From positions 1-32,418 of the forward strand of contig JALVIB010000006.1 of NCBI GenBank assembly GCA_027028725.1: DNA of 32,418 bases, written 5' to 3'. The position numbers and the translations under genes were made by a program. This DNA comes from Candidatus Altimarinota bacterium. GTDB taxonomy: Bacteria > Patescibacteriota > Gracilibacteria > UBA4473. The notes beneath the pieces are model-generated. The model was not told the origin of the DNA. It did not search any database and saw only the letters and a program-made list of their open reading frames with translations. Numbering within the stretch: position 1 is the stretch's first letter; the number at the start of each line of letters is the position of its first letter. Below are positions 11,763 through 31,990 of the stretch, in pieces.

Positions 11763-12773
11763 ATGTCTAAATCAAATTTTGAAAACATAGGAAATCCTCA
11801 AAGCGTTGAGGATTTTTTAAATTTCGCGGGATTTTTGCTGAAAGAGTTTAAAAATCCCACTCTGGAAGCAGAATTACTTTTATCCTTAGCGTTAGAAAAA
11901 GATCGCGTTTGGCTAAAAACTCATCATGATTACCTTCTAACAGCTGACGAAGCACGAAAATCCCGCGAATTTTTGGAACGCCGCAAAAACCACGAGCCGT
12001 TGGCTTATATCCGTGGTTGGAAAATGTGGTGCGACATGAAAATCAAAGTTTCGCCGGATGTTCTTATTCCGCGCGATGAAACGGAAATTTTGGCGAATTA
12101 TATTTTAGGCAACAAGTCCGAACTTACCCAAGTCCGGACTTGCCCAAGTCCGGACTTAAATTTTTCGCGGGATTTTGAGCCAAAAACTATTTTGGATATT
12201 GGGACGGGAAGTGGTTGTTTGGCTATTTTTTGCGCGAAAAATTTCCCGCAGGCAGAAGTGACCGCAATTGATATTTCCCCCAAAGCTCTACAAATCGCCA
12301 AAGAAAACGCCCAAACTCATAAAGTGGAAATCAATTTTATTGAGTCTGATTTGTTAGAAAATATTCATATTTCTCCCCTCTTTAGACAAAGAGGGGAATT
12401 AAAGGGGTGTTTGAATAAAGATCAAACGCCCCCTAGCCCCCGCTTAATCTTAAGCGGGGGGACAAGCAGGGACCCACAAAATTTCGACATAATCATCGCC
12501 AACCTCCCATATGTTCCGGACGACATTGAAGTCACTGAAGATGTCAGAAAAGAACCGCATAACGCGATTTTCGCAGGAGAAGACGGTTTGGATTTAATTC
12601 GCCGATTGGCAGAGGAATTAAAATCCCGCGAAATTTCGTTTCATGAACTTTGGTTAGAGTTTTGGACTGCTCAAGAGAAAGAAATTAAGAAAATTTTTGC
12701 GGGATTTTCTGTTGAGTTCTTGCCTGATTTAAGTGGAGATACTTATTTCGCGAAGATTACTCTAGAAAAGTAA
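11763..12773 (+). CDS. prmC: Peptide chain release factor N5-glutamine methyltransferase, with repeat-derived insertions
   Basis: Methylates the GGQ glutamine of release factors. Motifs: YIRGWKMWCDMKIKVSPDVL (PrmC N-domain into the hinge), RDETE, SAM motif TILDIGTGSGCLAIFCAKNF, VTAIDIS and catalytic IIANLPYVPDD (N-L-P-Y in place of N-P-P-Y). 336 residues is about 55 longer than usual. Two insertions explain it: residues about 117-140 (SELTQVRTCPSPDLNFSRDF), encoded by AAGTCCGGACTT palindromes plus a motif, and residues about 204-239, encoded by C/G hairpins. Removing them leaves about 278 residues, the normal size. Four exact motif copies are in the gene. Whether it remains active is unknown, but all core residues are kept. 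Confidence 0.9.
   Translation: MSKSNFENIGNPQSVEDFLNFAGFLLKEFKNPTLEAELLLSLALEKDRVWLKTHHDYLLTADEARKSREFLERRKNHEPLAYIRGWKMWCDMKIKVSPDVLIPRDETEILANYILGNKSELTQVRTCPSPDLNFSRDFEPKTILDIGTGSGCLAIFCAKNFPQAEVTAIDISPKALQIAKENAQTHKVEINFIESDLLENIHISPLFRQRGELKGCLNKDQTPPSPRLILSGGTSRDPQNFDIIIANLPYVPDDIEVTEDVRKEPHNAIFAGEDGLDLIRRLAEELKSREISFHELWLEFWTAQEKEIKKIFAGFSVEFLPDLSGDTYFAKITLEK
12114..12176 (+). repeat. AAGTCCGGACTT palindromic repeat plus motif, in frame in prmC
   Basis: Nearly three tandem 16-bp units (AAGTCCGGACTTGCCC type) followed by AAATTTTTCGCGGGATTTT. It is related to the repeats at 21121 and 31311 and encodes about 21 residues before the SAM-binding motif. Confidence 0.75.
12374..12461. repeat. 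Two GC hairpins inserted in frame in prmC
   Basis: Hairpins CCCCTCTTTAGACAAAGAGG/GG (12375-12396) and CCCCCGCTTAATCTTAAGCG/GGGG (12437-12460), with linkers AAAGGGGTGTTTG and CAAACGCCCCCTAG that also pair. This is the intergenic hairpin family found here inside a reading frame, between the helix ending SDLLENI and the strand NFDIIIANLPY. Confidence 0.75.
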
Positions 12774-12789
12774 AAATTTCGCGGGATTT

Positions 12790-14184
12790 TTATATTTCCT
12801 CCTTCTTTTGCGCAGACCAAATTCCCCAGCCCAACAAACCAAAACAAACCAAAAGGAAAACGGGGAATTTCCAAGAAAAATCTTGAACTTCGTCCGCTCC
12901 GGATTTTACCAGAGTAGCGTTTTCGGGGATGTATGGCGGTTCAGATTCTTCGGTTTCTTGATTTTCAAAGCTGTTAGCTTGAGCAGTTTCCGCCAAGGAA
13001 ATTCCCGCGAAAAAATCATCAACTTCTTCTTTTAGCGTTAAGTACTGCGTTTCGGTCTCTTTAGCTTCTTTTTGAACTTTGTACAAATTTGTCTGTAAAT
13101 CCAAGAAAGTTTTTTCCAAATTAGCTTTTTCGTTTTCGTCTTGCGCCCGAGAAATTGCCAACGAAACATTATTTAATTCAGCATTAAGCGTATCTATTTT
13201 TTGCTTTTTGATTGAGGCGTCTTTCAATAATTGCACCAAATCATTATATTTTTTCTCCATTTCGGGGTTCGCCTTTAATTTCGCGGGATTTTCTCTGACT
13301 TTTTTTTCTAACTCTTTTAAAATATCCAACTCGGTTTGAGCTTGAACGCTCGGAATTTCCTCTTCACTAGTTGCTTCAATTAGCGGAGGTTCGCCAGACG
13401 AGTGAAATCTCGCGAAATTTTCGTCTTCGAAATTATTTATCGCAAATTCACCATCTCCTTCCACAGAAAAATCTGCCGTTGAACCAATCTCCCCACTTGC
13501 TGGATTTCCTTCGATTTCATCAGCATATGGTCCAGTATAAGGGCGTTTCGGATAAACTTCATACTCATCAGCAAAATGTTCTGGTTCAGGATCTTCGTCA
13601 AAAATTGTGTAGATTCCCGTTCGACGCAAAACAGAAGTTAAAACCCGCGAATTTTCACCAGATTCCGCTACATTCCCCCCAATTTTTCGCCATCCGTCTT
13701 CTTCGCCTTGCCATTCCCAAAGGTTCGGCAGTTTCACATTTTCATCTTCAATTAGATAAACCAACTTTACCCAAGCTGATTTCTTTAATCCATCAGGATT
13801 GAGCAATTGCTCGCGAAATAAGTTTTTCCGTGTGCGTTTATCAAATTTGTCAATAAACAAAATATCTGCCCCAGAATTTGAAACCATTTCAAAAGTAATC
13901 AATTCGCGCATTAAGCCACGCGGGTTTTTGACATCTTCTAATTCAATTTTGTGCGGAGGCAAAATTTCTCCCGTAAAATTTACTTGTGCTTCAGCATCAA
14001 CAAACTTTGTGTCTTTGGAAAACTCAATAAAAACGCCACCTTCATCACTCGCCAACAAAGTATTTTCCGCGAGATTTCCATCAACCACCTCGACAAAACT
14101 AGCCGGCATTAACGGCTGATATTCCGCGAAAACTAGCGGAAAGAAAGCTGTTATAACGGCAAAAGCGGTTAAAAATTTTTTCAC
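12790..14184 (-). CDS. Membrane-anchored surface protein with coiled coil, unknown
   Basis: 464 residues with GTG start, signal peptide (1-20, ending PLVFA before EYQPL), an N-terminal beta-rich region (about 30-200) that mentions no known catalytic motif, an acidic low-complexity linker (200-275), a long coiled coil (about 280-400, KELEKKVRENPAKLKANPEM onward) and one membrane segment near 441-459 (FPVFLLVCFGLLGWGIW) followed by KKEEI. The design is a type I cell-envelope protein facing outside. No family is recognised. Its 3' end converges on prmC with a 16-bp spacer that is itself the motif. Exact motif copies encode FAGI and NPAK within the coiled-coil part. Confidence 0.75.
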   Translation of the reverse strand: MKKFLTAFAVITAFFPLVFAEYQPLMPASFVEVVDGNLAENTLLASDEGGVFIEFSKDTKFVDAEAQVNFTGEILPPHKIELEDVKNPRGLMRELITFEMVSNSGADILFIDKFDKRTRKNLFREQLLNPDGLKKSAWVKLVYLIEDENVKLPNLWEWQGEEDGWRKIGGNVAESGENSRVLTSVLRRTGIYTIFDEDPEPEHFADEYEVYPKRPYTGPYADEIEGNPASGEIGSTADFSVEGDGEFAINNFEDENFARFHSSGEPPLIEATSEEEIPSVQAQTELDILKELEKKVRENPAKLKANPEMEKKYNDLVQLLKDASIKKQKIDTLNAELNNVSLAISRAQDENEKANLEKTFLDLQTNLYKVQKEAKETETQYLTLKEEVDDFFAGISLAETAQANSFENQETEESEPPYIPENATLVKSGADEVQDFSWKFPVFLLVCFGLLGWGIWSAQKKEEI

Positions 14185-14231
14185 AATGGTATTTTGGCCT
14201 AATTTCGCGGGATTTTCAAATAAAAAAAATT

Positions 14232-17935: not shown

Positions 17936-18220
17936 ATGGCACACAAGAAAGCTGGTGGTAGTTCCAAAAACGGTCGAGATTCCAATGCCAAGCGCCGTGG
18001 CGTGAAGCGATTTGGAGGGCAGTCTGTCCACGCTGGGGAAGTTCTAATTCGTCAGAAAGGGACTAAATTCCGTCCAGGATTAAATGTTGGAATGGGAAAA
18101 GACTTTACTTTATATGCAGAAAAGGAAGGAGTTGTGACTTTTTCCAAGAAAGCTGTTGTTCGTTTTGACGGACGCCGCTACGAAAAAGTTTTTGTAAACA
18201 TCGCTGAATTAGCGAAATAA
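17936..18220 (+). CDS. rpmA: 50S ribosomal protein L27
   Basis: 94 residues. It begins [20 protein letters not shown], the L27 signature whose N-terminal tail reaches the peptidyl-transferase centre, and continues with [20 protein letters not shown] and [15 protein letters not shown]. rplU, its usual partner, is not adjacent. It has its own promoter and terminator, so it is a single-gene transcription unit. No motif copy is in the gene. Confidence 0.97.
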
Positions 18221-18243: not shown

Positions 18244-18274
18244 AAAATCCCGCGAAATTTCTCGGGATTTTTTT
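18244..18274 (+). terminator. Rho-independent terminator after rpmA built from a motif copy
   Basis: AAAATCCCG (18244-18252) pairs with CGGGATTTT (18263-18271), loop CGAAATTTCT, then further T residues. One arm is an exact motif copy and the other a degenerate inverted one. Confidence 0.75.
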
Positions 18275-22470: not shown

Positions 22471-22812
22471 ATGGAAAACGATATTGAAAAACAAGGCGGT
22501 CTTTCGGCAAATCATTTACGCGAATTAGAGTCAGTTATCAGTCAAATTTTAACAAATCAAGAGATAATTATTAATCAGCAAAAAGAACTCTTGGATTCTA
22601 AAAAAATGGATCGAATTTGGGGAATAATAAAAGCCGTTCTTATTTGGATTGTTTTACCGATGATTTTAATGGCATATATGCCACAACTTATTGAAAAAAT
22701 GACTGGACAAATTAATGGTGTAATGCAGAAACAAATACAAAATGTAACCCAGGGAAGTGGGAGCTTGGATGTGGAAAAAGCGACTGAATTAATAAATCTG
22801 ATTAACCAATAA
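22471..22812 (+). CDS. Small single-pass membrane protein, unknown
   Basis: 113 residues. Residues 1-45 form an amphipathic, Gln/Glu-rich helix (LESVISQILTNQEIIINQQK), one membrane helix spans about 50-70 (IIKAVLIWIVLPMILMAYM) and the tail is polar. No family is recognised. The stop TAA is directly followed by a motif copy. mscL is 73 bp downstream, so joint expression is possible. Confidence 0.65.
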   Translation: MENDIEKQGGLSANHLRELESVISQILTNQEIIINQQKELLDSKKMDRIWGIIKAVLIWIVLPMILMAYMPQLIEKMTGQINGVMQKQIQNVTQGSGSLDVEKATELINLINQ

Positions 22813-22885
22813 TTTCGCGGGATTTTGACAACGACGGATATTTAATTCATAATTTTTCTGCATTTTATTTTTTAACCCATTCAAA

Positions 22886-24574: not shown

Positions 24575-24626
24575 CGAGTTTTTGCGGAAATCCCGCGAAA
24601 TTTTGCAGATCGTCTAGGATTTAGAC

Positions 24627-24714
24627 TTTATCTCTTTTGGTTGGAGCACCTTACTTCTGAGGAAGCGGTTGCTGATGGGTCACAGAGCCAAACCTCTCGC
24701 CATCTCTCGATAAA
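24627..24714 (-). promoter_or_regulatory. SAM-I (S-box) riboswitch upstream of metK
   Basis: The minus strand begins TTTATCGAGAGATGGCGAGA and ends AAGAGATAAA, pairing as P1 (TTTATC/GATAAA). Conserved core pieces are present: GAGAGGTTTGGCTCTGTGAC, CAGCAACC, a small P3 (GCTTC/GAAGT) and AAGGTGCTCCAACC, matching the S-box AAGGTGC...TCC. It is compact at 88 bases. Its place 83 bp before metK fits SAM feedback. Confidence 0.82.
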
Positions 24715-24835
24715 TTTACGACGAAAGTCTATTTTTTCGCGGGATTTTGTCAAAATTTCCTTTGGCTACTTCTCCTTCTAGTCCCGAGTTCTCGGGATGG
24801 CGGGGAGTGAGGTAGTTTAAAATTTCAAATTCCTC

Positions 24836-25453: not shown

Positions 25454-28400
25454 ATGAAAAAATTACTTCTCGGATTCGCGGTGCTTCTTTTGGCAGGGTG
25501 CCAGATTGGGAATGTTTCAGACTTGGTGGAAGATGCGCAGGATGTGGTTTCTTTTACAGAGAATTTGGAAATTGAAAAACTCGCGGAAATTGTCTTTGTG
25601 TCCCCAGAAAATGGGGCGACAGAAATTCGCGGGAAAGTCCCACTGACTTTTTTGTGGAAAGAGCCAATTTTTTCACTACAAAATCATCAAGGAGCGCAGA
25701 AATTTCTCGCGAAAAATATCACTTTGACTCCCGAACATGAAGGAGAATGGAAAATTTTGGGGACAACCGGAATTTCTTTTGAACCAAAAGAAGATTGGAC
25801 ACCTTCGACTCATTATGAAGTAAAATTTTCGCGGGATTTGGTCAAAGATTTCTCATACAGCTTTGAAACCGAACGCGTCAAAATCTTGAATATAAATAAT
25901 TTTGAACTAGTTAATCGCAATCCAGTAAAAATTTCGTTTAATCAAGAAGTAAAACTCCGCGAAATTTCTCTTAACACAAAACTTTTAGATGCAGACGAAC
26001 AAGAAGTTCCGTTTGATTTGTGGTATGACGAAGATCAGGACGGAAATTTATTGAAAAATCAGTTAAAACTAATTCCCCGCGAAAAATGGGCGGAAGAGGC
26101 GACCTACAAAATTACTATTTATCCGGGAGATTTTTCACTTGGCGGAAATTTGCTGATGGAAAAAGGATTTGAGCAAAAATTTACGACTGCGCCAAAGTTT
26201 CAAATAGATGAAATCAATGTTCCTCAATATGACGGGGATTCGGCTAATATTCGTTTTTCTGCGAGTGTTTCAAGTAAAAAATTCGCGGAATTTTTGGAAA
26301 TTTCACCAGAATTTTCCGCGGAAGAATGGGATAAATACATCAAAGAATGGCGCGAAAATGAATATGATTCGCAATATTTTTATCTCAATCCACCAAACGG
26401 ATCATGGGATCCGCAACAAAAATTTACTATCAAAATCAAAAAAGGGTTAACAGATAAATACGGACGAATTTTGACCGAAGACGCTGAAAAAAGTTTTCAA
26501 ACAATTTTGGACACCTTTTTCCGTTCAGTGTATATGCCAAAACCTTTTTCAACTTTTTCACGGGACACGGAGATTCGTCCGTCCTTTATTTTTGGAGGAA
26601 AAGTTGAATCGGTGAAAGTGACTTTAAACGAAAAATCGCGGGATTCAATGACTTCCCGCGAGGGACGAGCGGTTGAAGGAATTAATCCCGCCACCGTAAA
26701 AGTTCCAAATTTTTCGCGGGAATTTTCGCTGGATTCGTCTTTAACCGAGAAAAAAGCTTGGAAAATTAACTTAAAGGAAGAATTTCCAGAAATCCTGAAA
26801 GACGAAAATGGAGAAACTTTACCGGGGAAATACAAGTTGGTTATTGAGCCAGATTTTCCCGATCAGAAATGGAATCCGAAGTTTGAATCAACTTTTTTTA
26901 TCTCGGATTTTTCGGTGGAAATGAAAAAATTTGCTAATGAAAAATACCAAATTTTCGCGAGCAATTATCCAAACGACAAAATTTCGCGGGATTTTGATAA
27001 CCTTAATGTAGAAATCTGGGTTGGTGGTTGGCAAAAAGAGCATTTGTATAAATCTTTTAAAAATGTGAAAAACGGCTTTACCTTTGACATAAACGATAGT
27101 TCCGAGCCGTTAAGAACTGTCGTGGTTTATACCGAAAACAGCACCGGATATGTCAGCCCTGATTTTCAAGACGGAATTAGTCCATGGGACGCGCATATTG
27201 ATTTTGGAGCGTGGGAATATAGTAGAAATTTCGCGGGAACTATGTTTACCGATCGCCCTCTTTATAAACCAGGACAAAAGCTTTATCTGAAAGGATATTT
27301 GAGAGAAATGCAACTCTTTGGTAAAAACTTTCCGCTAAAAAATCCCGCCCTTCAACATAGTTCAGGGCAGGCCATTCGGCGAAGCTCAGGGCAGGCGAAA
27401 AATTTGAATAAAAAATACACCATCACGGTTTATGATCCGCAGTATAATGAAATTGGAAAAATTACGGGGACAACGCAGGACGGCAGTTTTGATAATGAAT
27501 TTGAAATTCCCGAATCGGCAAAATTGGGGAATTACAACTTAGAATTTAATTTGGAAGACGGCGATTTGAATTTATCTACGCCGTTTTGGATTCAAGAATA
27601 TCGTAAACCAAATTTCTTGATTTCCGCTAAATTTGATCACGAACGCGCCATTCTTGATGACGAAATTTTCGCGGGAATTTCGGCGCAATACGCTTTTGGT
27701 GGGAAAATTGCTAATCGTCCTGTGAAATATACCGTTTCGCTTTTCGGATACGAGCCGTGCCGCTGGTGGTGCTGGGATTTAGCGAAAAAGGACAAAGTGA
27801 TCACTTCCGGTGAAGGTATGCTGGACGAGAACGGCGAACTGGAAATTCCAATTGATTTACGCGATCTCGAATTGGGCGATTTTGACTGGAATCTTTTGAC
27901 TTTGAACGCGACAATTAAAGTCAGTCCAGCTGAAGAAAGTTCAGTTGAAAAATCGTTACCGTTTTTCCGCGCGAACAAAATTTTGACGATAAAAGATGCG
28001 CCTTATTTCTTTCAAGCAGAAAATCCCGCGAAAATTTCCGGAGAAGTGCGTGATTTAGACGAAAAATTGCTAGCCGGTGAAGAGGTTGAATTAGTTTTAT
28101 ACAAAACTAAATGGGTGCGGAGTGATCGTAAAAATGCTGATGGAAATTTTTACGGAGAATGGGAGTCTGTGAACGAAAAAGTTTGGGATAAAGAGGTGGA
28201 AACAGACGATAACGGACAATTTGTTTTTGATTTCACTACGCCAGAAGAAGGTGGAGAATACTTTTTCCGTATTTCTACGGAAGACGAAAAATCTCGCGAG
28301 ATTTTTGAAAAAATGTTTTTCTGGATTGCTGACAATGATGTTTCCGAAGTTCATAAAAATGAAACTAATAAGATTCTGTGGATGTTCCCAAATAAAGATA

Positions 28401-31243
28401 AATACGAAATTGGTGAAGAAGTAGAAATTTTCGCGCCAAATCCGGAATTCAAAATAACTCGAGCGCACGCCACTTTGGAACGCGGAGAAATTTTGGAAGA
28501 ACTAGATTTTGATTACGATACTAATACAGTGAAATTTCCCGCGAAAAAATGGATGGCGCCGAATGTTCATGTTTCTATTTTGCTGGAAGGAGTTGACGAA
28601 AAAGGAAATCTCAAAATGAAGTGGGGATCGCATAAAATTCAAATTCACGATCCTGCTCACGAGTTACAAATTTCTGTAATCCCCGCGCCTGCCGACCGGA
28701 GCTTTAGCGAAGGTTGGAAAAAAGTTTACAAACCGGGCGAAGAAGCGGAGTTCAAAATTACCACCAAAGTAAATGGCAAAGCGCATCCTGCCGAAGTGGC
28801 GGTGGCGGTTGTGGACGAAACTTTATTGGCGCTAAAATCGCGGGTTAAAGTTGATTTGATTCATGATTTAATCGGCGAACTACCTTTGGGCGTGGAAACT
28901 TTCCACACTTTGGCAAACTTTATGTCCAAACAAGAAATGCAAGAAGTTCTCGCTGAAGCTGACCAACTAATGGCCAAAATGGCGGTTGGATTTGGTGGTG
29001 GAGGAGGAAAAGGAGACGACTTCAAACCGCGCGGAGATTTCCGTGATACGGCGGAATTTTTCGCGAAAATTCAGACCGATGAAAACGGTGAAGCAGTCGT
29101 TAAATTCAAACTTCCCGACAATTTGACCACTTGGAATATTTTCGCGGCGGGAGCGACCAAAGATAACGCTTTTGGGACGACGGAAAACAATTTCCAAGTG
29201 ACTTTACCGCTGTTGATTTCGGAGATTGTCCCTAATTTTTTCCAAGCCGGAGATGAATTGAAAATCGGTTTATTAATCCACCGAAATTCTGCGAAAATTC
29301 CCGAAGAAAATATCAAGGTTACGCTAAATTTACCGCCGGAATTGGAAGCTGTGGACAGGACCGAAAAGACTGTTTCCGTTAAAGATGAGGTACGCGTTTA
29401 TTTCCCAGTGAAAGTAAAAAGTCTTGATTCAGCGAAAAAAATAGAATTCGGATTCCAAATTTTCGCGGAAAAATCAGATGTCCAAGACGCTGTTTCACTC
29501 AAACGGGAAATTTTACCGCCAAGTCAGGTTTTATCCGCCGCGGAACTTTTACGCGTTGAGCCAGCGTCCGCCGACCAAAACGAAGAAAAATCCCGCGAAA
29601 ATCCTAGCGAAGGTTGGAAATTTTCGGTTTTGCCGGATAAAAATGCCATCAAATCTTTCTTCAAAGTGAAAATTTTTGCTTCACTGGTAAATTATCTAGA
29701 AAATCTCGTGGAAATTTCGCAAAAAAATGATTACGGCTGTGCCGAACAAAGATTTTCGCGGGATTCCGGAATGATGTATCAAGCGGAATTAAACAAGATT
29801 TTAGACAAAAATTCCGCCAAACTTGATTTAGAACAAATTAAAAAAGACCGCGACTACATTGAAAAAGCGTTTGTAGATGGCGGATTTGGATACTGGGAAG
29901 ATTCAAGCTCACCGAGTTTCTGGGTGACTACACAAATTCTAGAACACAGTGATTTATGGGAAAAATTTGAGGTAGGAATTTCCCGCGAAAAAATTTCCCA
30001 AGCCAGCGATTGGCTTCGTCGCGAAATGTTACGAGTTTGTAAAGACGGCGATTGGACTTGTCCGGACGATACTTCGCGGGAAAATGCCGCTTACGCACTC
30101 GCCAAACATGGAAAACTTTCGGTTAATGATTTAGAATTTTTGGACGAATTTACCACAACTTTGGAAGCCAAAGTGTGGTGGCTAAAATCCGCGAAATTAG
30201 TCGGAAATCTTTCTCCAAAACTGGAAAAAAGTTTTGCAAAACACTTGGAAAAACTCAAAGAAGCATTTGTAATTCGCGATCGTTATGGATTCTGGAAAGA
30301 AACAGGCGGACGCAGTTTCTATTCACAAGACGAAAGGTTAACCGCCATTATTTTGGATTTCTTGCTCAAAAATAAAGAAATGACCGACCAGTTAGCTAAA
30401 ATTTCGCGGTATTTAGCGGAAAGTAAAAAAGACTTTTTATCCGGAAATTCGGCAATGCAGATTTTGAAATCTCTGGCGGAATATGTTCGCACGCAAGAAA
30501 AAGCAAGCGTGGGAGCGGAGTTTGTCGTGGAAAATCCCGCGCCTGCCGATCGAAGCCAAAATTCTCGCGAAAATTCTGGCGAAGATTGGAAAAATGAGGT
30601 TCTACTCAAAGGGTCGCTACAAAATTTGGCGCAAGTTCAGGAATATCAGACAGACGATTTGGGACACGAAAAACAGACGATTGAAGTCAAAACAAATAAA
30701 CCGGTTTTCGCGGAAATTGAGCTCAAAGACAATTTGCCAGCCAAGTTTGTCCGCGAAAATTCGCGGGGATTTTGGATTGAGCGAGAAGTTTTCCCGCTGG
30801 AAGGAAAAAATCCCCACCGCCTTGCGGGGCGCAGCGCGAAAAATTCCGTTGAAAATTTAGAATTAGGGAAAAATTATTTAGTTAAAATAAAGATTGTGAC
30901 AAATTCCGCGCACCGCCAAGTCTTGATTGAAGATCCTATTCCGAGTGGAGCGGAAATCGTAAATTTTGATCTGGATAATTCTGACCAAACAATGTCCGAA
31001 ATTATTGACGGACAGGAAAAATGCGTTTGGGGATGGTGTCAGCCGTTATTTCAACACAAAGAATACCGCTACGACCGCGCGCGATTTTTCGTTGATTATC
31101 TCGGCGCCGGAACACACGAAATTTCCTATGTGCTAAAAACTCGCCTGCCGGGAGAATTTGACTGGCTTCCGGCGCAAGTTAAGGAAATGTATTATCCGGA
31201 AATTTTCGCGAACACCGCAGGAAAACGGATTGAGATTGAGTAA
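25454..31243 (+). CDS. Alpha-2-macroglobulin-like lipoprotein with thioester
   Basis: 1929 residues. A lipobox LLAG-C16 ends the signal peptide (MKKLLLGFAVLLLAGC), so it is lipid-anchored at the membrane. N-terminal Ig-like domains (VSPENGATEIRGKVPLTFLW) are followed by MG2-like DRPLYKPGQKLYLKGYLRE near 600, a bait/MG region, the central A2M domain near 1190-1240 (KLPDNLTTWNIFAAGATKDN), and the thioester motif GCAEQ at 1428-1432 with its alpha-alpha barrel to about 1700. The C-terminal receptor-like domain has FFVDYLGAGTHEISYVLKTR. Such proteins trap proteases by covalent thioester linkage. The usual partner PBP1C is absent here. It has 14 exact motif copies and five palindromic elements in frame. 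Confidence 0.93.
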   Translation: MKKLLLGFAVLLLAGCQIGNVSDLVEDAQDVVSFTENLEIEKLAEIVFVSPENGATEIRGKVPLTFLWKEPIFSLQNHQGAQKFLAKNITLTPEHEGEWKILGTTGISFEPKEDWTPSTHYEVKFSRDLVKDFSYSFETERVKILNINNFELVNRNPVKISFNQEVKLREISLNTKLLDADEQEVPFDLWYDEDQDGNLLKNQLKLIPREKWAEEATYKITIYPGDFSLGGNLLMEKGFEQKFTTAPKFQIDEINVPQYDGDSANIRFSASVSSKKFAEFLEISPEFSAEEWDKYIKEWRENEYDSQYFYLNPPNGSWDPQQKFTIKIKKGLTDKYGRILTEDAEKSFQTILDTFFRSVYMPKPFSTFSRDTEIRPSFIFGGKVESVKVTLNEKSRDSMTSREGRAVEGINPATVKVPNFSREFSLDSSLTEKKAWKINLKEEFPEILKDENGETLPGKYKLVIEPDFPDQKWNPKFESTFFISDFSVEMKKFANEKYQIFASNYPNDKISRDFDNLNVEIWVGGWQKEHLYKSFKNVKNGFTFDINDSSEPLRTVVVYTENSTGYVSPDFQDGISPWDAHIDFGAWEYSRNFAGTMFTDRPLYKPGQKLYLKGYLREMQLFGKNFPLKNPALQHSSGQAIRRSSGQAKNLNKKYTITVYDPQYNEIGKITGTTQDGSFDNEFEIPESAKLGNYNLEFNLEDGDLNLSTPFWIQEYRKPNFLISAKFDHERAILDDEIFAGISAQYAFGGKIANRPVKYTVSLFGYEPCRWWCWDLAKKDKVITSGEGMLDENGELEIPIDLRDLELGDFDWNLLTLNATIKVSPAEESSVEKSLPFFRANKILTIKDAPYFFQAENPAKISGEVRDLDEKLLAGEEVELVLYKTKWVRSDRKNADGNFYGEWESVNEKVWDKEVETDDNGQFVFDFTTPEEGGEYFFRISTEDEKSREIFEKMFFWIADNDVSEVHKNETNKILWMFPNKDKYEIGEEVEIFAPNPEFKITRAHATLERGEILEELDFDYDTNTVKFPAKKWMAPNVHVSILLEGVDEKGNLKMKWGSHKIQIHDPAHELQISVIPAPADRSFSEGWKKVYKPGEEAEFKITTKVNGKAHPAEVAVAVVDETLLALKSRVKVDLIHDLIGELPLGVETFHTLANFMSKQEMQEVLAEADQLMAKMAVGFGGGGGKGDDFKPRGDFRDTAEFFAKIQTDENGEAVVKFKLPDNLTTWNIFAAGATKDNAFGTTENNFQVTLPLLISEIVPNFFQAGDELKIGLLIHRNSAKIPEENIKVTLNLPPELEAVDRTEKTVSVKDEVRVYFPVKVKSLDSAKKIEFGFQIFAEKSDVQDAVSLKREILPPSQVLSAAELLRVEPASADQNEEKSRENPSEGWKFSVLPDKNAIKSFFKVKIFASLVNYLENLVEISQKNDYGCAEQRFSRDSGMMYQAELNKILDKNSAKLDLEQIKKDRDYIEKAFVDGGFGYWEDSSSPSFWVTTQILEHSDLWEKFEVGISREKISQASDWLRREMLRVCKDGDWTCPDDTSRENAAYALAKHGKLSVNDLEFLDEFTTTLEAKVWWLKSAKLVGNLSPKLEKSFAKHLEKLKEAFVIRDRYGFWKETGGRSFYSQDERLTAIILDFLLKNKEMTDQLAKISRYLAESKKDFLSGNSAMQILKSLAEYVRTQEKASVGAEFVVENPAPADRSQNSRENSGEDWKNEVLLKGSLQNLAQVQEYQTDDLGHEKQTIEVKTNKPVFAEIELKDNLPAKFVRENSRGFWIEREVFPLEGKNPHRLAGRSAKNSVENLELGKNYLVKIKIVTNSAHRQVLIEDPIPSGAEIVNFDLDNSDQTMSEIIDGQEKCVWGWCQPLFQHKEYRYDRARFFVDYLGAGTHEISYVLKTRLPGEFDWLPAQVKEMYYPEIFANTAGKRIEIE
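27348..27395 (+). repeat. Element C3, 48-bp dimer in the macroglobulin gene
   Basis: Two 24-bp units starting CCCTTCAACATAGTTCAGGG and CCATTCGGCGAAGCTCAGGG encode SSGQA twice. Excision joins AAAAAATCCCG to CGAAAAATTT, a perfect motif. Confidence 0.75.
28688..28717 (+). repeat. Element B3, 30 bp, in the macroglobulin gene
   Basis: CCTGCCGACCGGAGCTTTAG then CGAAGGTTGG, encoding PADRSFSEGWK. Excision gives AATCCCCGCGAAAAAA, the motif with one extra C. Confidence 0.7.
29567..29617 (+). repeat. Element B4 with a motif copy nested in its loop
   Basis: The 51-bp copy has B arms CCGCCGACC and AGCGAAGGTTGG, but its loop is 21 bp longer than in B3 and holds AAAAATCCCGCGAAAAT. Outer flanks CCAGCG and AAATTTTC resemble a diverged motif. 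It encodes PASADQNEEKSRENPSEGWK. Confidence 0.7.
30542..30589 (+). repeat. Element B5 with a near-motif nested in its loop
   Basis: The 48-bp copy (B arms CCTGCCGATCGAAG and GGCGAAGATTGG) is 18 bp longer than B3 because the loop contains AAAATTCTCGCGAAAATTC. Outer flanks AAAATCCCGCG and AAAAATGA rejoin as a perfect motif. It encodes PADRSQNSRENSGEDWK. Confidence 0.72.
30814..30834 (-). repeat. Element D2, 21 bp, in the macroglobulin gene
   Basis: The minus strand carries GCCCCGCAAGGCGGTGG as at 22058. Flanks AAAAAATCC and CGCGAAAAATT rejoin as a perfect motif. It encodes HRLAGRS-like residues in frame. Confidence 0.75.
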
Positions 31244-31248
31244 GATAA

Positions 31249-31278
31249 AAAAATCCCGCGAAATTTCGCGGGATTTTT
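31249..31278. terminator. Perfect 30-bp palindrome of two motif copies, likely terminator
   Basis: AAAAATCCCGCGAAA is followed directly by its reverse complement TTTCGCGGGATTTTT, 5 bp after the macroglobulin stop. A stem with A- and T-rich ends can end transcription in both directions, like paired uptake sequences in Neisseria. Confidence 0.75.
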
Positions 31279-31288
31279 GAAAAAAGAA

Positions 31289-31397
31289 AAACAAGTTCGA
31301 ACTTGGCATACTAGAAAAACAAGTCCGGACTTGGCACAGGAAAAAAAGCTTTTTAAGTCCGGACTTAAGTTTTTCTGCGAAAATTTCGCGGGATTTT
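31289..31397 (+). repeat. Second copy of the 86-bp AAGTCCGGACTT-motif repeat
   Basis: 31311-31397 matches 21121-21206 apart from one inserted G. An extra diverged unit CAAGTTCGAACTTGGCATA precedes it (31289-31308). Its motif (31386-31393) ends just before the stop of the minus-strand secreted protein. Confidence 0.8.
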
Positions 31398-31990
31398 TAC
31401 TGCAATGGATTGAAAATAAAGGCCGTTATTTTGTCTGCAAATCTTTTAAATTCCCGCGCAAAACTAACTATGTTAGGGATTAGATACTGACTAGAACGAA
31501 CTTCAATCGCGCGGAATTTTTCGCGGAAAGTAGAGCGTGTTTTGCGTCGTTGGTTTTCCAGAACTGCCGTTTTAATTTTTAATTTTTCTATCTCAAAAAT
31601 ATTATCAATTGTTTTATCACACCAAGCATTTTGCGCATTGTCTTCCTTGAAATTCTTCCCCGTATCACACTCATTGATCATAGTATGACAAGCTTTTTCC
31701 AGACAAAGTCTATGAATTCGCAGTTCCTGAATTCCTTTTTGCGTAAGCCAATTTGGATTCGAAACATTGTCCTTCATTATTTTTTGGACGATTTCTTTGT
31801 CAAAATAATTTAATTCAACTTCAAAAGTATTTTTCGCGGATAATTCCGTAAACTGGTTAGCCGAACAATTTGGATCAGCTTTAATGGCTTCAATTATCTC
31901 ATCTTCACGCGGACACTCCAGCATCTCGTTTTCCGCGAAAACTTGACCAACAAGTACGAAAGAAATCAGCAGTAAGAAAGTTTTTTTCAT
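31397..31990 (-). CDS. Secreted Cys-containing protein, unknown
   Basis: 197 residues. The signal peptide (1-19) ends GQVFA before ENEML. The mature part has six Cys (CPREDE, NCSANQ, LCLEKACHT, NECDTG, WCDKT), enough for three disulphides, in a helical region. The C-terminal third is basic (KTRSTFREKFRAIEVRSSQY) and ends in a weakly hydrophobic stretch. No family is recognised. It lies downstream of tRNA-Trp on the same strand and has a terminator-like hairpin between them. Confidence 0.7.
   Translation of the reverse strand: MKKTFLLLISFVLVGQVFAENEMLECPREDEIIEAIKADPNCSANQFTELSAKNTFEVELNYFDKEIVQKIMKDNVSNPNWLTQKGIQELRIHRLCLEKACHTMINECDTGKNFKEDNAQNAWCDKTIDNIFEIEKLKIKTAVLENQRRKTRSTFREKFRAIEVRSSQYLIPNIVSFAREFKRFADKITAFIFNPLQ

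Follow-up and report, generated by a model that had tools for sequence, protein, structure and literature searches.

The question raised by this locus is why a perfect palindrome, composed of two inverted copies of a motif repeated throughout the genome, stands just behind a gene for an alpha-2-macroglobulin-like protein, and whether it ends transcription there. The window, meaning the entire stretch of 32,418 nucleotides analyzed, comprises bases 1-32418 of contig C6 from a genome of 1.04 Mb in 94 contigs that is 99.6% complete. Its gene content and small size, a size in keeping with most of the relatives searched, suggest a member of the Patescibacteria (CPR). The macroglobulin gene (25454..31243, + strand) encodes 1,929 amino acids, with bMG10, MG2, A2M, and bait-region domains identified in its open reading frame (ORF) by Pfam matches. 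After its stop codon come five nucleotides and then AAAAATCCCGCGAAATTTCGCGGGATTTTT (window 31249-31278), a palindrome of exactly 30 bp that reads the same on both strands, just as the original prediction described; the two abutting inverted motif copies within it have a central AAATTT in common. Beyond it, on the - strand, a convergent ORF of 197 amino acids without a match in Pfam (31397..31990) has its stop toward the palindrome.

For the macroglobulin-side hairpin, the predicted folding energy is -19.8 kcal/mol (+ strand) and -19.3 kcal/mol (- strand); both strands have T-tracts, and the element is also found in a scan for terminator-like sequences. These results support its description as a predicted bidirectional intrinsic terminator, with a 13-bp stem and an AATT loop. 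The A- and T-tracts would come from the AAAT/ATTT edges of the motif and the GC stem from its CGCGGGA core; judging from fold and position, RNA would end at the T-tracts, so that the palindrome would terminate transcription of the macroglobulin gene and, less surely, that of the convergent gene. Counting against this, the + strand T-tract has just five T residues, followed by G. The 30-base palindrome is nevertheless, by its modeled structure, very probably a transcription stop signal. We regard as likely the fuller description, that it is a bidirectional Rho-independent terminator formed by two overlapping inverted copies of a lineage-specific, probable uptake motif. A second hairpin from the terminator-like scan, TTCTGCGAAAATTTCGCGGGA followed by TTTTT at 31373..31393 (+ strand), has a single motif copy, an imperfect 5' arm, and a fold of -10.3 kcal/mol, and is possibly a backup + strand terminator.

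The gene for 50S ribosomal protein L27, rpmA (17936..18220, + strand, TIGR00062), is followed by a degenerate motif pair at 18244..18274, which the original prediction had also pointed out. Its core, CCCGCGAAATTTCTCGGG, found by motif scan, carries one mismatch, and the structure, with one stem mismatch, a T7 tail, and a fold of -12.5 kcal/mol, supports its assignment as the predicted + strand terminator of rpmA. A motif pair sits at both gene ends, rpmA and macroglobulin, in this genome. Of 25 relatives, 11 have an unrelated terminator-like hairpin in the corresponding place behind rpmA, as compared to 3 of 80 other stops of the same loci (P 4e-6). The nearest full-length ortholog of the macroglobulin, at 50% identity, has an unrelated terminator, GAAACTCTGAATCTT...AGATTCAGAGTTTTTT, about 34 nt after the stop, and in a congener of the species that encodes it, a strong hairpin whose tail is weaker on that strand lies about 25 nt past the stop; on the negative side, the majority of macroglobulin orthologs, at 38-42% identity, show no terminator in this position. 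From these hairpins in relatives, the rpmA end appears to be a terminator site in the wider group, and the macroglobulin end in the nearest relatives. The two gene ends are thus named sites at which relatives still show an unrelated terminator.

A model that finds Rho matches in 12 of 14 control genomes detected no gene for Rho in this 99.6%-complete one. Of 117 convergent stops, 21 have a strong hairpin with a T-tail behind them, as do 20 of the 106 co-directional stops whose gap is at least 40 nt; together these are 41 of 223, whereas none of 57 co-directional stops closely followed by another gene has one. Such counts vary with the thresholds chosen; from this difference, intrinsic termination appears to be in use. 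Three characteristics of an intrinsic terminator were found here: a hairpin with a T-tract, a location downstream of a stop or between convergent genes, and a position conserved despite changed sequence. The proposal that the pairs terminate transcription accordingly holds up as a prediction at both sites, on structure, position, failure to find Rho, and non-homologous terminators in relatives. It does not hold as a general rule, since pairs are one minor source of terminators.

Several additional elements were observed. Near-identical terminator-like hairpins, GGACAGGTTT..AAACCTGTCC, GGGCGATTATCAATCGCCC, and CCACCGCCTTGCGGGGCACAGCGCGGG, recur after different genes, as if copied around the genome. 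A second repeat, the palindrome AAGTCCGGACTT (in the window, for example, at 31299-31370 and 12130-12157), occurs 50 times in a sample of 403 kb of genome stretches (383 kb without N), far above expectation; its copies often are closely paired, and some form terminator-like hairpins. An ordinary SAM riboswitch (24625-24716, - strand) lies upstream of the S-adenosylmethionine synthetase gene.

The 1.04-Mb genome contains 1,273 exact copies of the 13-mer TTTCGCGGGATTT, 631 forward and 642 reverse, and none of its reversed control. Copies of TTCGCGGGATTT with no more than one mismatch number 82 in the window by motif scan, dispersed over both strands from 621 to 32291, where 0.9 would be expected. 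Alignment of 931 core copies from the sample yields a compact consensus of 18 bp, AAAATTTCGCGGGATTTT, with nearly no conservation beyond it, and scaling up from the sample gives about 2,500 core copies genome-wide, or about 2.3-2.4 per kb. Roughly half of exact copies fall between ORFs, although noncoding sequence is just 14% of the sample, with the rest within ORFs in either orientation and copies also found upstream of gene starts; genes in the sampled contigs were called by a simple ORF procedure, so these and other gene-context counts are approximate. Copies avoid one another, as only 17 neighbors no more than 50 bp apart were seen versus about 90 expected. The longest motif-free stretch of the sample, 4.9 kb (96-5001 of L013, contig C30), is not an rRNA operon; it contains a gene of 1,427 amino acids with an S-layer domain.

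The best-documented uptake sequences are those of two families of proteobacteria, the Neisseriaceae and the Pasteurellaceae. Because its abundance, asymmetry, occurrence in both orientations, even spacing, and gene-end bias match the uptake sequences of these groups, the motif is, by analogy, most likely the DNA uptake sequence of this bacterium. The host encodes ComEC, DprA, and 25 pilin-like proteins, recognized by a type IV (N-methyl) N-terminus, and the motif would drive uptake of DNA by a type IV pilus/ComEC route. ComEC and DprA also occur in nearly all sampled relatives, which do not have the motif, so both genes are permissive rather than diagnostic for an uptake motif. Three attributes of a DNA uptake sequence are present together, namely a high core count on both strands, spaced copies in coding and noncoding DNA with intergenic enrichment, and genes for competence and pili. 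No uptake sequence was found described for Patescibacteria in the literature searched, and an oral lineage of this mostly uncultivated group was demonstrated to undergo natural transformation (PMC11665869). A private motif at such density would suggest self-selective DNA exchange in the group.

High abundance and fairly even spacing would also suit a binding site for a chromosome-organizing or repair system (Chi-, KOPS-, or HIP1-like), with the pairs as protein-binding palindromes, and the 18-bp consensus, flanked by AAAAT/ATTTT, is partly palindromic. Along contigs, however, the motif favors neither strand (chi-square P 0.56), so Chi/KOPS-like polarity is rejected, and it was seen in one lineage only among the genomes searched. 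We consider such a binding site improbable relative to an uptake sequence.

In each of 405 distinct other genomes from the family, class, and phylum, mostly of about 0.4-2 Mb, the 13-mer TTTCGCGGGATTT is found zero times or once, a result that describes other genera, as the relatives searched included no second species of the host genus. No comparable motif or dialect of their own was seen in relatives, as judged from small family and class samples, most of 5-40 kb. Outside the lineage, the matches listed from public genomes and viral contigs are scattered single ones. One of these, from Crocinitomicaceae (Bacteroidota), is an identical 28-bp palindrome, present once (71-98 of L105) on a 4-kb contig with no other exact motif copies; it is an independent terminator-like case.

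Inverted pairs, as opposed to single copies, are few. Exact head-to-head cores no more than 30 bp apart number six genome-wide, every one with a 2-bp gap, while the opposite arrangement of exact cores occurs once; both motif copies intact around a 4-nt loop is the sole geometry found for exact pairs over gaps of 0-30. Uniform placement would predict about 48 pairs over those gaps, so pairs as such are depleted, and about 1.5 at any one exact gap, so the six represent a modest excess at their spacing (P 0.005 before correction for 31 gaps). A genome-wide count of inverted pairs, with their positions relative to stop codons, was the check put forward with the original prediction. It returned seven near-perfect pairs (at most one mismatch, full AATC/GATT flanks), and five of these begin no more than about 31 nt past a stop, those of macroglobulin, rpmA, and murJ among them. 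This contrasts with 14% of all motif copies lying within 40 nt of a stop (binomial P 0.0009). The total, seven or eight pairs, is less than 1% of the approximately 2,500 copies, and pairs account for just 3 of 43 detectable terminators in the 383 kb of sample without N; pairs as a general terminator system are therefore rejected.

With so many copies concentrated between genes, some might come to lie head-to-head by luck, the pair having no role of its own, and uniform placement predicts about 1.5 pairs at any exact spacing, against a total of just seven or eight. Against such chance adjacency, which we think unlikely, close neighbors are depleted, yet all six exact pairs have equal spacing, and five of seven pairs occur just after stops, with terminators at the same gene ends in relatives. 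Termination at the pairs remains the better account.

Most motif copies are single, and many abut stop codons. Of 292 stops, about 100 have a copy no more than 12 nt away, for the most part in fixed registers with TAA overlapping or touching the A-rich motif edge; motif copies that begin with TAA in the window include those at 13276-13292, 14200-14216, and 22810-22826. A copy is found at 43% of convergent stops but 23% of closely followed co-directional stops (P 0.012). These observations could be taken to mean that the motif is mainly a signal for transcription or RNA 3' ends rather than an uptake sequence, with the pairs as its strongest form. A terminator hairpin, however, occurs at none of 38 stops with a single sense copy, versus 33 of 188 motif-free stops, so single sense copies are rejected as terminators. 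Further, ORFs contain about half of the exact copies, in either orientation, other copies precede gene starts, and the uptake sequences of Pasteurellaceae are likewise biased to gene termini (PMC2346458). A primary role as a 3'-end signal therefore has a low probability in our estimation. Single copies at stops may have some role at RNA 3' ends, although a simple account would be that a motif that must be frequent is kept at least cost at the ends of genes.

How this system relates to known ones may be seen by comparison. HIP1 of cyanobacteria is a short palindrome, very abundant, limited to some lineages, and found also within genes. The motif described here is similarly abundant, short, lineage-restricted, and present in genes, but it is asymmetric and 18 bp in length. 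With ordinary Rho-independent terminators, the pairs share a GC stem, a 4-nt loop, a T-tract, and placement after stops or between convergent genes; the difference is that the stem here is drawn from a repeated genomic motif, whereas theirs is unique. The uptake signal sequences of Pasteurellaceae (AAGTGCGGT and variants) likewise have about 1,000 or more copies, on both strands, with AT-rich flanks, gene-end bias, and some terminator pairs. Their sequence is unrelated, the conserved block here is a compact 18 bp without a long downstream AT pattern, and pairs here are rarer than in Pasteurellaceae with a known motif, where uptake sequences occur in 17-29% of terminators (PMC1852404).

The closest comparison, and the one drawn in the original prediction, is to Neisseria. 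There, too, inverted copies of an abundant motif form hairpins after genes, and the A/T edges of the motif provide the tails, so the analogy is sound as to the kind of reuse and its mechanism. It fails as to extent. In Neisseria, about 55% of high-confidence terminators contain an uptake sequence (Kingsford 2007, PMC1852404), and N. meningitidis Z2491 has 231 close pairs by the sum of Table 4 in that work; the corresponding figures here are about 7% of detectable terminators, rather than the large share typical of Neisseria, and seven or eight pairs, with close pairs otherwise depleted. The sequences are unrelated, no Rho gene was found here, and the copies here overlap in AAATTT, where paired neisserial copies are non-overlapping (Frye 2013, PMC3630211). 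The few pairs resemble the beginnings of a conversion of uptake tags to terminators. The evidence leaves evenly balanced, in our view, the broader proposal: that in an ultrasmall lineage, probably of Patescibacteria, a private DNA uptake sequence arose independently, at a higher density than in Neisseria or Haemophilus, and that this lineage, with its Rho-less genome, is starting to recruit inverted copies as terminators in place of the unrelated ones that previously stood at these gene ends.
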